A stretch of DNA of 63,442 bases from an uncultured Pelagibacteraceae bacterium (lineage in GTDB: Bacteria; Pseudomonadota; Alphaproteobacteria; Pelagibacterales; Pelagibacteraceae), in NCBI GenBank assembly GCA_902581775.1, contig CACHPJ010000006.1:1-63442 (forward strand), written 5' to 3'. Every line of letters starts with the position of its first letter. The first letter of the stretch is position 1. Position numbers and translations under genes: made by a program. Positions 4,990-63,442 of the stretch are shown in pieces. A model generated the notes under the pieces. The model was given only the letters and a program-made list of their open reading frames with translations. It did not search any database and was not told the DNA's origin.

Positions 4990-5568
4990 TCATAAACTTT
5001 TAGCAAGAGACCTAACTTTATTCATATATGATTCAAATTTAGATTTAGGCATATCTGGTAGAACTTCATAAAATCTCAAATAAGTTGTTTTCATACCTCC
5101 AAGTTTGAGAACCCCAGCTTTTATTCTTCTAAAAGGAATATTTTGAAACCAAGTTTGAATTGAAAACCAATTACCTCCATATGACATTGACATTATTGCT
5201 AAACGATTTTTCATTGCACCAGGCACTGGATAGCCCCAATTGCCTACAAGTCTTTTAAAAGAAAAAAACCATTTCGGTGCAAGCACAAGATCAATCCAGT
5301 TTTCCAAAATTGCGGTAGCTCTTAAGTTATAGCATGGAGATATCATGAATAGAACGTCACTTTTTTCTAGTCTTTCTCTATATTGTAAAATTTGTTCACT
5401 AGGTTGTGAACCGTCAAAAAATGGTATTGGTTTCTCTTCATATAAATTTATTAAATCAATTCTGTGACCTAATTTTTTTGCCTCATCAATAAATACATCT
5501 CTTATTGAAGCATTAAAGGATGTTTTGGTGTTATGGTGCCCATAAACAACAAAAATTTTTTTTGACAT
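4990..5568 (-). CDS. Flavodoxin-fold NAD(P)H-dependent oxidoreductase
   Basis: A 192-residue protein of the NQO1/MdaB-like flavodoxin fold. An N-terminal beta strand plus phosphate-binding region (FVVYGHHNTKTSFN) is followed by the strand and loop SDVLFMISPCYNLRATAILENWIDLV, in which the LxNWID element is typical of FMN-binding quinone reductases. It would be cytoplasmic, using NAD(P)H to reduce quinones or related compounds by two electrons. It lies alone, pointing left, between two tRNA genes that are usually adjacent in alphaproteobacteria, so it is probably an insertion there. Substrate unknown. Confidence 0.8.
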   Translation of the reverse strand: MSKKIFVVYGHHNTKTSFNASIRDVFIDEAKKLGHRIDLINLYEEKPIPFFDGSQPSEQILQYRERLEKSDVLFMISPCYNLRATAILENWIDLVLAPKWFFSFKRLVGNWGYPVPGAMKNRLAIMSMSYGGNWFSIQTWFQNIPFRRIKAGVLKLGGMKTTYLRFYEVLPDMPKSKFESYMNKVRSLAKSL

Positions 5569-60216: not shown

Positions 60217-60969
60217 ATGGCTAAAGGTAAAAAAATAAATTCTGCAATTCTCATTATTGGTGATGAAATTCTATCTGGAAGAACACAAGACTTAAATGTA
60301 TCATTTTTAGCTAATTGGCTTAATAAAAATTGTGGAATTACAGTGGGAGAAGTTAGGGTGATACCAGATAAAGAAAAAATAATTGTTGAGAATATCTTAC
60401 AATTATCAAAAAGTTTTAGTTATGTCTTTACTACTGGAGGTATTGGTCCAACTCATGATGATATAACCGCAAAATCTATCTCAAAAGCTTTTAAAGTTAA
60501 ATATAGATTTCATGAAGAAGCTTATGAAATTTTAAAAAACTATTATGGAAAAAAAAATTTTAATGATGGAAGAAAAAAAATGGCTAAAATGCCAAGTGGC
60601 TCTAAATTGATTTACAATCCCTCTAGTGCCGCCCCAGGATTCATGATTAAAAATGTAATCTCATTACCTGGAGTTCCATCAATTTTAAAAGGGATGATAG
60701 AAAACTCAAAAAAATTTTTAGTTAAAGGAAAAATAACTCAAAGTAAGTCAATAAATTTATTAACTGTAGAAAGTAATATTTCTGTTGAATTAGCAAATAT
60801 ACAAAAAAAATTTAAGAAACAAGTTAGCATAGGTAGTTATCCATTTTTTAGATTAGGAAAAATTGGAGTTTCGATAGTTTTGCGCTCTGTAAAACTCAAA
60901 AGTATTGACCTTTGTTTAAAAGAAATTTTTAAAATTGTTAAAAAGAAAAACATAAATATTTTTAATTAA
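60217..60969 (+). CDS. CinA-like molybdopterin-binding domain protein
   Basis: A 250-residue protein made of the MoaB/Mog-type domain found at the N-terminus of CinA: IIGDEILSGRTQDLNVSFLA (about 12-31), TTGGIGPTHDDITAKSISKAF (about 71-91) and the SLPGVPSILKGMI motif (about 148-160). The second, pyrophosphatase/deamidase domain of full CinA (about 410 residues) is absent, so it is the short form common in alphaproteobacteria. CinA-type domains can cleave ADP-ribose; the role here is not defined. It overlaps the convergent GT9 gene by 4 nt. Confidence 0.88.
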   Translation: MAKGKKINSAILIIGDEILSGRTQDLNVSFLANWLNKNCGITVGEVRVIPDKEKIIVENILQLSKSFSYVFTTGGIGPTHDDITAKSISKAFKVKYRFHEEAYEILKNYYGKKNFNDGRKKMAKMPSGSKLIYNPSSAAPGFMIKNVISLPGVPSILKGMIENSKKFLVKGKITQSKSINLLTVESNISVELANIQKKFKKQVSIGSYPFFRLGKIGVSIVLRSVKLKSIDLCLKEIFKIVKKKNINIFN

Positions 60970-61937
60970 ATGTGTTTAAAAACCTCGCCAACTCCAATTT
61001 TTGAAATATCTGATGATTTATAAATCTCTTTAGTATCTATAATTGTAACGTCATCAATTTTTGGTGCAAATTTTTCTGCATTCGTTGGTCCAAACAAAAG
61101 AATCATTGGAATATTTGCCAATCCCATCATATGCATAATACCATTGTCTATTGAAATTGCTTTATCCAATCTTGCAGATAAAGCAGTTACCAAAGCAGGG
61201 CAGGAAAGTTTTGAATTATGTTCAGGGAAAAGAGCGTTATCTACTTGATTTTTAATTTTATCTATTAAATCAAACTCATCTTCTTTAATAAAAAAAACTG
61301 GAACTTTATTTTTATTTTTAATTTTTTTTGCCAACTCAATAAATTTATCTATTGACCAACTTTTTTTTCTGTAAACATTTCCCTGGGTTATCGAGAAACC
61401 AACGTAACCATTATTTGGTAAAAGTCTTTTAGCTTCTTTCTTATATTTATCATCAATATTTTCTAAACTATAGTGTATCCTTTTAATGCTTGTTTCTAGA
61501 AAGATATTGAGATTTTTTATGGTCATATAATCAAGATCATTAGAATAAAAATAATCTCTTCTTTTAGAGCAAAAATAAAAATTAAGTGTTCTTGAATAAA
61601 AACTAGAACTTGGTATTTGATTTAGTATAACGGTATTTCGAAGTTTTGACTGAAGATCTATAATCAAATCAAAACTTTCAATTCCATTCTCAAAAACTCT
61701 TTTCTTTGCCACCAAGTAATGCCACCATCTAAATCCAAAATATTTCAAGTTTAGATTTAAATTTTTCATGTTAATGTTGTATTCTTTTAATTCATTCTCA
61801 AAATGGTTTTCATGAGCACTTAAATAATAAACTTCTGAATTTTTAAAATGATTTTGTAGGCTTAAGATGAAAGAAAATAACTGTACAGAGTCTCCTAATC
61901 CACCACCAGAGTTGTATATTAAGATTTTTTTTTGCAT
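60966..61937 (-). CDS. Glycosyltransferase family 9-like protein
   Basis: A 323-residue GT-B protein like heptosyltransferases, second of this kind in the window. The N-terminal IYNSGGGLGDSVQLFSFIL (about 6-24) and the C-terminal SIDNGIMHMMGLANIPMILLFGPTNAEKF (about 257-285) are the diagnostic blocks. In the first block the usual His/Arg before the G-rich loop is replaced, so it is a divergent member. Its start is only 22 nt from the tRNA-Leu half at 61960, next to an apparent island border. Confidence 0.85.
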   Translation of the reverse strand: MQKKILIYNSGGGLGDSVQLFSFILSLQNHFKNSEVYYLSAHENHFENELKEYNINMKNLNLNLKYFGFRWWHYLVAKKRVFENGIESFDLIIDLQSKLRNTVILNQIPSSSFYSRTLNFYFCSKRRDYFYSNDLDYMTIKNLNIFLETSIKRIHYSLENIDDKYKKEAKRLLPNNGYVGFSITQGNVYRKKSWSIDKFIELAKKIKNKNKVPVFFIKEDEFDLIDKIKNQVDNALFPEHNSKLSCPALVTALSARLDKAISIDNGIMHMMGLANIPMILLFGPTNAEKFAPKIDDVTIIDTKEIYKSSDISKIGVGEVFKHI

Positions 61938-61959
61938 TTGCAGACAGTTTGTTTATAAA

Positions 61960-61998
61960 GCCCTCGTGGTGAAATTGATAGACACAAAATGTTTAAAA
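61960..61998 (+). pseudogene. 5' half of tRNA-Leu(TAA), broken at the anticodon loop
   Basis: The 39 nt match a tRNA-Leu 5' half: acceptor strand GCCCTCG (61960-61966), TG at positions 8-9, D-stem GTG/CAC with an AAATTGATAGA loop, anticodon stem AAATG (61987-61991), and loop TTTAAAA with anticodon TAA (61994-61996). The following bases (TAGCT) do not pair with AAATG, and no variable arm, T-arm or 3' acceptor strand follows. The D-loop GG pair reads GA, a further sign of decay. The break is only 3 nt from the stop codon of the GH13 gene. Confidence 0.7.
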
Positions 61999-62001
61999 TA
62001 G

Positions 62002-63442
62002 CTATCTATTGCTTAACCAAATCGTTTCAAAGGGTTTTAATATTAAAAGCTTATTTTTTATTTCAATTTTAGATCCAATTAAATTATTCCAATTATGATA
62101 AACTTTATTCAGGTGTGCTCTTTGAGTTTTTGACGACAAATTTGTAATACAAATTATAGTTTGCTCTTTGTTAATACTTATTCTTTTGAAAGAAAAAATT
62201 TTTGAGCCAAGGTTTATATTTAGTCTTGATGCATTTGGATGAAATGCCTTTTGTTTTCTCCTAACGTCAAGCAAATTTGAAATTTTCTGGAAAAATATAC
62301 TTTGTTTAGAATTTTTATTCTCAATTTTTTTTGAAATACTTTTAAATTTCCATTTGTATCTATTAACGTCTCTATTATTTCCAGTTATTATATATTTAGC
62401 TTCATCATTAGATTTTCCAAACAAAGAATTAAAATATATTGCGGGAATTCCTTCAAAAGAAATAATAATTGAATGTGCAGAAAGATATCGTTCTAAAAGG
62501 AATTTTCCTTTTAAATCATTATCCGATTTTTTAAGTGCATCGAACACTGTTATATTTGCCTCATAGACTTTTTTTGATTTATTCTTAACTTTTCTATATG
62601 AAAATTTTGATCCATTTTTTTTTAGTCTAATAAGAAAGTTTTTTAGTATTTTCTTATTAAATATTCCTTCTGTAGGTCTAATACCAATTCCATCATGAGA
62701 TGATATAAAATTTAAATAACTATTCCCTTTCTTTGCAATTGGTAGTTTTTTACTCCATCGATTTAAATATGAACTATTCTCAAATAAAAAAGCATGAATT
62801 AACAGTGGCGGAAGAGAAAAATTATAAATCCAATTGGCTTCATCATTTTTACCAAAATAACTTAGATTTTCTTTTTCGGGTAAATTTGTTTCTGTAACGA
62901 TTATGGTTTCCACATTAAGAGAATTACAAATTGTTCTTAAAAGTTTAATTATCTCATGCGTTTGTTTTAAATTAATGCATTTTGTACCGCTCTCTTTCCA
63001 AAGATAAGCAATTGCGTCCAATCTAAAAATAGTCACACCATGATTAATAAGATTAATCATAATTTTTATAAATCTTAATAATACGGATGGATTTTTAAAA
63101 TTTAAATCTAATTGATCTGCACTAAAAGTTCTCCAAAGGTATTCATTTTTATTAAAAATATTAATTTTTTTTAATAATCTATGATCTCTTGGTCGTATTA
63201 CTTTTGAAGTATCAAATTTGGAATCAATCTTTAAAAAATAATCTTTACCTGGTTGTTTATTTTTCAAAAAGTTTCTAAACCACAAACCTCTTGATGAAGA
63301 ATGATTAATTACCATATCAGCCATTATGTCATTTGATTTTGAAATTTTTTTTATATCAGACCAATTACCAAGTTTATTTTCAATTCTATAATGATCTTTT
63401 ACAGAAAAACCACTATCACTACTTGAGGGATAAAAAGGTAAA
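62002..63442 (-). CDS. GH13 (subfamily 18-like) glycoside phosphorylase, sucrose/glucosylglycerate phosphorylase type (5' end outside window)
   Basis: About 480 C-terminal residues are visible; the frame is open to the right edge and begins with LPFYPSSSDSGFSV, a hallmark of sucrose/glucosylglycerate phosphorylases. The barrel residues are intact: nucleophile Asp in FRLDAIAYLWKE, acid/base Glu in VTETNLPEKENLSYFG, and the transition-state Asp in ISSHDGIGIRP. Such enzymes split a glucoside with phosphate, giving glucose-1-phosphate and saving ATP. Sucrose, glucosylglycerate or glucosylglycerol could be the substrate. The sequence is Lys/Asn-rich, and it lies against a broken tRNA-Leu, suggesting acquired DNA. 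Confidence 0.88.
   Translation of the reverse strand, partial: LPFYPSSSDSGFSVKDHYRIENKLGNWSDIKKISKSNDIMADMVINHSSSRGLWFRNFLKNKQPGKDYFLKIDSKFDTSKVIRPRDHRLLKKINIFNKNEYLWRTFSADQLDLNFKNPSVLLRFIKIMINLINHGVTIFRLDAIAYLWKESGTKCINLKQTHEIIKLLRTICNSLNVETIIVTETNLPEKENLSYFGKNDEANWIYNFSLPPLLIHAFLFENSSYLNRWSKKLPIAKKGNSYLNFISSHDGIGIRPTEGIFNKKILKNFLIRLKKNGSKFSYRKVKNKSKKVYEANITVFDALKKSDNDLKGKFLLERYLSAHSIIISFEGIPAIYFNSLFGKSNDEAKYIITGNNRDVNRYKWKFKSISKKIENKNSKQSIFFQKISNLLDVRRKQKAFHPNASRLNINLGSKIFSFKRISINKEQTIICITNLSSKTQRAHLNKVYHNWNNLIGSKIEIKNKLLILKPFETIWLSNR

Follow-up and report, generated by a model that had tools for sequence, protein, structure and literature searches.

A 39-nt fragment of a tRNA-Leu(UAA) gene in a SAR11 contig is probably the worn left junction of a genomic island in this gene, where relatives carry arrays of cassettes that may be served by an integrase acting in trans. 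The fragment is in itself an ordinary old island scar, with a GH13 gene as the first gene inside. SAR11 bacteria are among the most abundant marine bacteria, and how genes are transferred in this group becomes testable with a defined site, a defined anatomy of the cassettes, a candidate enzyme and the finding of near-identical cassettes in genomes that have diverged.

The tRNA fragment and its neighbours

The window, that is, the whole stretch of DNA analysed, is the complete contig G000:C6 of 63,442 bases. Its source genome is 77% complete in 32 contigs, and the window shows only the left edge of the island, since the contig stops inside the GH13 reading frame. The features at this edge are:

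60217..60969 (+), MoCF_biosynth-domain gene, left flank (PF00994, E = 1.9e-29)
60966..61937 (−), GT9 glycosyltransferase gene (PF01075, E = 1.6e-11), adjoining the empty tRNA-Leu site in relatives
61938..61959 (no strand), 22-bp spacer between GT9 and the half, aligned with the sites of relatives (five empty, two occupied)
61960..61998 (+), decayed 5′ half (nt 1–39) of tRNA-Leu(UAA), attL-like (34/39 identity)
62002..63441 (−), GH13 sucrose-phosphorylase-like gene, 5′ part off the contig (PF00128, E = 2e-22)

The first of these genes is CinA-like; such a gene stands left of GT9 in many related loci, among the matches listed. In the alignment of the spacer the window is short of roughly 40 bp that relatives have upstream of the tRNA. 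The GH13 homologue in one relative (L276) matches TIGR03852 at 173.8 bits, below the cut-off of 334.4.

The fragment is identical to the first 39 nt of the SAR11 tRNA-Leu(UAA) gene at 34 positions, with mismatches at half positions 19 and 30–33, so that four of the five fall in the anticodon stem and loop part. The next-best sites in the window score 22 on the plus strand and 22 on the minus strand, and the top score among 200 first-order Markov random sequences was 27. Similarity ends with the anticodon loop, which reads TTTAAAA here and CTTAAAA in relatives, three bases before the GH13 stop codon at 62002–62004 (−). A preliminary description of this DNA, made from the sequence alone, had reported a tRNA half with just this boundary, three bases from the GH13 stop, and in this it was right; it had also called the half intact, which five mismatches in 39 nt belie. 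At the fragment neither ARAGORN nor Rfam (gathering cut-off) reports a tRNA, as is to be expected of a half, and neither AGTCTC arm repeats (described below) nor an integrase gene are found beside it. The check that the preliminary description had suggested, for another complete tRNA-Leu(TAA) in the genome, gave none: the 22 tRNA hits in the 77%-complete assembly include leucine anticodons TAG, CAA and GAG only.

We also considered a group I intron, since one in tRNA-Leu(UAA) would likewise split the gene in the anticodon loop, and rejected it: Rfam at its gathering cut-off reports two tRNAs only in the window, coding sequence directly adjoins the half, and relatives carry cassettes.

The same site in related genomes

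A 38-mer of the tRNA-Leu half occurs with at most 3 mismatches in 122 of 169 genus genomes, and in two or more copies in 39. Sixty regions were fetched and 55 loci (from 53 genomes) were used, chosen for several halves or for completeness and not at random; left out were L180 (a 100-base placeholder), L254, L265 and L266 (integrase regions) and L278 (a duplicate region). Five of the 55 loci (G112, G141, G150, G153 and G166) have an empty site, with GT9 followed by an intact tRNA-Leu(UAA) gene and tRNA-Thr further right. At 19 others the GT9 start has a half no more than ∼130 bp away, followed on the right by other DNA, and at the occupied GT9 sites this foreign DNA begins directly after the 39-nt half. 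Where a locus has an intact tRNA-Leu gene (48 loci), this is always the rightmost copy, and in 31 of these loci halves accompany it.

These comparisons uphold the earlier suggestion of an island junction at tRNA-Leu(UAA), since relatives show empty sites, halves beside GT9 and a boundary at the anticodon loop. They assign GT9 to the old chromosome and not to the island, as left neighbour of the empty site. Nor do relatives lose the tRNA gene: in them the inserted DNA supplies a new 5′ half, and a complete tRNA stands at the right.

A second variable interval lies between tRNA-Leu(UAA) and tRNA-Thr, which are from ∼0.8 kb to ∼5 kb apart depending on the genome (L164 and L274 against L165 and L269).

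The association with GH13 is not conserved in all relatives. GH13 was found in 7 of the 55 loci, but several of the 55 are cut by contig ends that could hide it. From the other side, 80 GH13-bearing relatives (Pelagibacteraceae, Pelagibacter or Pelagibacterales) were collected and 79 scored for halves, one being too short; a clear half (at least 28/39) stands beside the GH13 stop in only eight (L055, L061, L065, L071, L074, L075, L076 and L079), while three score 23–26 and 68 score 15–22, which is background level. Many low-scoring loci have GH13 near a CinA-like gene without GT9, among the matches listed. Judged by these scores, only a minority of loci retain a half next to GH13, the others having lost it or never had it. 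The scarcity of clear halves (8/79) lowered our confidence in the junction explanation, and with many of the low-scoring loci lacking GT9 any history of GH13 at the site is tentative. In L055, L074 and L076 similarity to tRNA-Leu continues for about ten bases past the anticodon loop, and there the original junction may have lain further on. Two fetched loci, L276 and L253, carry GH13 with sugar-type ABC transporter genes between a half and the intact tRNA-Leu. In one genome a pyruvate kinase gene follows the GT9-side half (L253:3780–5192).

Anatomy of the cassette arrays

The 55 loci contain 95 copies of the tRNA-start sequence, 89 of them exact over 39 nt. Between successive copies lie 40 units of 1,002 to 10,499 bp, of which 17 do not exceed 1.5 kb and 36 do not exceed 7 kb. 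Counts over 38 units, given below, omit the GH13 units of L253 and L276. Open reading frames of at least 100 aa in these 38 number 97 on the tRNA strand against 1 on the other, with one per unit in 13 units, two in 13 and more in 12.

At its left end a unit has the exact 39-nt half, ∼23 nt, three AGTCTC-type repeats spaced 10 bp apart, and then a leader. The three repeats, which resemble a P′ arm, were found by pattern in 36 of the 40 units; of the other four, two have changed repeats and the two GH13 units have none. Because this arm is missing both from the window's island and from the two fetched GH13-holding units, the window's island may be an element of another type. Among 30 matches to the arm pattern, 27 begin 24 bp past the end of a half, among the matches listed; one (G074:C1) is preceded by a strongly decayed half, one (G013:C14) has no half among the matches listed, and one (G177) lies beyond the range of that list. 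The first gene starts at unit positions 157–441, in 19 of the 38 units at 203–239 and in 8 at exactly 215.

The signal peptides at the start of first cargo genes are often alike (e.g. MKKLLxIVVLGLLW), position 215 recurring in those 8 of 38 units, as if shared leader and signal sequence formed a common expression module.

The right end of a unit comprises two ACTAG-type repeats, an A+T-rich stretch and a promoter-like motif (TTTACT, 17 bp, then TATTAA or TATAAA). The paired ACTAG repeats, resembling a P arm, were again found by pattern in 36 of the 40 units, and at 39 of 40 inner sites the end of the motif is exactly 32 bp from the tRNA start, compared with 0.6% of shuffles. The same cassette-type upstream motif is present at 24 of the 54 leftmost copies tested, as would be left by older cassettes that had decayed on that side. 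Across 26 non-redundant units of the AGTCTC type, pairwise identity averages 0.99 in the core, drops to 0.83 in the right end (∼110 bp compared) and 0.74 in the leader, and is 0.41 at positions 211–500; low identity there and high identity at the ends mean that different cargo lies between similar ends.

The promoter-like motif occurs in none of the 38 cargo leaders. A generic promoter score gave 8.63 for right ends, 8.55 for leaders and 8.54 for shuffled leaders, and right ends did not stand out from background when scored against a promoter consensus. Given these similar scores and the common descent of the right ends, the constant place of the motif supports a promoter only weakly.

Cargo genes

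Pfam was run on 24 cargo proteins and PADLOC on 51 representatives of cargo clusters. The latter matched 159 families, and the best 25 of these 159 are nearly all restriction-modification. Matches include a Type ISP restriction-modification enzyme, N6/N4 methylases with ResIII helicases, an MFS/ATG22-like transporter with a GDPD phosphodiesterase, a trypsin-like protease, cytochrome c, pilin-like N termini and a 3-dehydroquinate synthase-like protein; a C5 methylase and the pyruvate kinase come from the GH13 unit L253. Other proteins matched no family. Resistance to phages and the uptake of nutrients may both be affected by this cargo, with its restriction-modification systems, transporters and secreted proteins.

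One unit (L175:5296–10635) carries several pilin-like reading frames in a row with a common N-terminal motif (N_methyl match in the one scanned). Units in G107, G108, G127, G162, G164 and G167 have in common a right part of ∼3.6 kb (secreted protein, MFS/ATG22-like, GDPD) that follows different first genes, so that mosaics exist within units.

Near-identical cassettes in diverged genomes

One 5,026-bp unit is present in three genomes, identical at 5025 positions between G006 and G169, 5024 between G006 and G023 and 5023 between G169 and G023. Its flanks are far less alike: 79.5% identity over 1,212 bp on the right for G006/G169 and 78.5% over 1,191 bp on the left for G006/G023, the remaining flanks being alignable over just 42–92 bp, so that the unit has different neighbours there. 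In the tRNA Thr-Gly region these pairs are 84.6–85.3% identical (median of 370 pairs, 83.2%). The cross-species identity is recent, and cassettes appear, from such comparisons, to move between SAR11 species. Every unit that has a partner of at least 97% identity adjoins an intact tRNA gene, which fits entry at the tRNA; but so do 31 of all 40 units, and for that reason adjacency is a weak sign of the entry point.

Search for an integrase

Profile searches with filters off found no integrase among the 123 reading frames of the units, the best E value being 0.055 with the satellite integrase profile and 0.28 with one built from 33 integrases. In held-out controls a phage profile recovered 3/3 satellite integrases and 25/27 host ones, and a satellite profile recovered 3/3 phage integrases and no host ones. 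A host-type profile finds no satellite integrases and alone would miss them. PF00589 gave 29 matches in 27 of 33 chosen genomes, none within the fetched array stretches; 27 are reading frames of 309–327 aa, one per genome, presumably Xer-like by motif, and the other two are in G070 and G088.

The 38-mer also occurs in 23 viral contigs. Three IMG/VR contigs (L213, L228 and L234) have the cassette layout on both sides of the 39-mer, with the AGTCTC triple at the same distance as in cassettes and, left of the core, two CTAGG repeats, then GATAAAT and a T run; in L232 this layout is found as a variant. In contigs of the L213 type, an integrase of 545–549 aa directly follows the arm (phrog_1 match of 4.3e-20 in L213) and a primase/helicase-type protein is encoded downstream, the L213 primase matching AEP-TOTE and DUF5906 and a small protein matching a RusA-like family. 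Ten proteins were scanned (8 of L213, 2 of L232) and none matched a structural protein. The first and last 99 bases of L213 are identical, as expected of a 7,700-bp circle; the element is known here from IMG/VR contigs.

The satellite integrase is absent from 168 of the 169 genus genomes. Its lone relative there (L254, in G147:C13) is 33% identical and is not at the tRNA-Leu site: the contig has no tRNA-Leu half, and the long reading frame matches Phage_integrase at 5.8e-5, below the cut-off. No relatives were found in 50,697 phage records at E 1e-5, where the satellite primase has 282 distant relatives, all below 60% identity. The 7.7-kb element is most likely, we infer, a visiting satellite-like helper whose integrase would move the cassettes in trans.

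In L234, which belongs to the same contig as L240, a 966-aa reading frame left of the att core looks by eye like a helicase and is perhaps cargo on the satellite itself. Viral contig L235 carries copies of the tRNA half in opposite orientations (39/39 and 38/39).

Proposed mechanism and alternatives

We propose that an element enters by site-specific recombination within the 5′ part of the tRNA gene, no further than the anticodon loop. Next to GT9 the former 5′ half would stay behind, and the right end of the element would bring a new 39-nt 5′ half with its upstream region, rebuilding a complete tRNA gene at the right; repeated insertion would yield a cassette array with the intact tRNA last. 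Because the cassettes have attP-like arms and no detected integrase, the enzyme would act in trans, its most likely source being the 7.7-kb satellite-like element with the same att layout. The junction in the window would be an old one, with its upstream region partly gone, its half drifted and GH13 as first gene inside.

The cell needs tRNA-Leu(UAA). After an insertion the tRNA no longer stands behind its old promoter and should receive another from the right end of the element, which is the more to be expected because one intact tRNA copy is seen at a locus. We predict that the old tRNA promoter would drive the cassette cargo, which has the same orientation and no such motif in its leaders, and the new cassette end the tRNA.

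Taken together these steps would make an integron-like SAR11 system, in which a cassette takes the promoter of tRNA-Leu(UAA) and gives a fresh promoter and half in return, arrays grow stepwise at the tRNA, and the integrase of an infecting satellite spreads cassettes, those with restriction systems and transport genes included, between SAR11 species; for this wider reading we see the chances as evenly divided.

Homologous recombination alone might instead account for the arrays, RecA exchanging, adding and losing cassettes through the 39-nt halves and the conserved ends, with no integrase active now. The undetected integrase in units and the rarity of the satellite type (missing from 168/169 genomes) would suit this, as would the similar right ends (0.83) and leaders (0.74) and the several mosaics around a common ∼3.6 kb right part. 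We nevertheless consider it unlikely: arm-type repeats of fixed geometry flank the core and are held in common with integrase-encoding elements, and at occupied GT9 sites foreign DNA begins directly after the 39-nt half.

That pelagiphages such as HTVC105P move the cassettes is more doubtful still. The 39-nt core is matched exactly (39/39), between integrase and RNA polymerase genes, in HTVC105P and in the uncultured phage S35-C6, but the AGTCTC and ACTAG repeats are absent around the phage core, whereas the satellite-like contigs match on both sides. Having the core alone and not the arms in common, the pelagiphage integrase was demoted as candidate mover.

An unrelated tRNA pseudogene copy or a chance match, suggested for the window fragment by its degeneracy (34/39) and by the lack of adjoining arm repeats or integrase, is scarcely credible for a sequence that adjoins GT9 exactly where relatives have an intact tRNA or a half, and when random sequences reach at most 27/39.

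Relation to known systems

The tycheposon work of Hackl et al. in 2023 reportedly includes similar elements in microbes living with Prochlorococcus, so that part of the cassette finding may already be in print. Tycheposons are outlined second-hand, in the available parts of PMC10872708 and PMC11389934, as elements that integrate at tRNA genes, carry cargo and encode a tyrosine recombinase, some being proposed satellites. By description only, the SAR11 units are like them in integration at a tRNA gene, in cargo and in islands built by insertion; they differ in having no detected tyrosine recombinase and often just one or two genes.

No report of SAR11 tRNA-Leu arrays was found among the titles and abstract beginnings listed from the open-licence literature. 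A 2020 study stated, in the portion available, that the specific gene-transfer mechanisms of SAR11 were unknown, and described a SAR11 prophage in tRNA-Val (PMC7542561). SAR11 hypervariable regions were described, in the part of the paper at hand, as without attC sites, with HVR4 flanked by tRNA genes (PMC2217521). The phnCDEubiE operon of Pelagibacterales is a recently transferred one beside tyrosine recombinases and tRNA genes; unlike the present units, it comes in the accessible text with no mention of a cassette array or tRNA-Leu half (PMC12416821).

A close likeness in the excerpts available is to additive flexible genomic islands of streamlined aquatic bacteria, which also have cassettes at a tRNA gene with tRNA-fragment direct repeats. 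Cassettes at tRNA genes in Ca. Actinomarinales are marked by partial tRNA repeats (PMC7771536), and those of the Methylophilaceae fGI-2 by the last 20 nt of tRNA-Lys (PMC10872708), in contrast to the first 39 nt of tRNA-Leu in SAR11. Those same excerpts contain no mention of att arms, a replacement promoter or a helper element for such islands.

CALINs, integron cassette arrays without integrase (PMC11389934, in the part available), offer an analogy in their tandem cassettes, in the mobilisation in trans that we propose and in growth at one fixed end; the SAR11 site differs in being a tRNA half with phage-type arm repeats. The same source, as far as available, names the phage satellites PICI, PICMI and VEIME (PMC11389934), which the 7.7-kb element may resemble, with its integrase, primase/helicase and RusA-like matches and no structural match among the proteins scanned. 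Among phages, pelagiphage HTVC105P has the same 39 nt beside its integrase gene and HTVC109P matches 37 nt of the half at 94.6%; both are full phages with different arm sequences.
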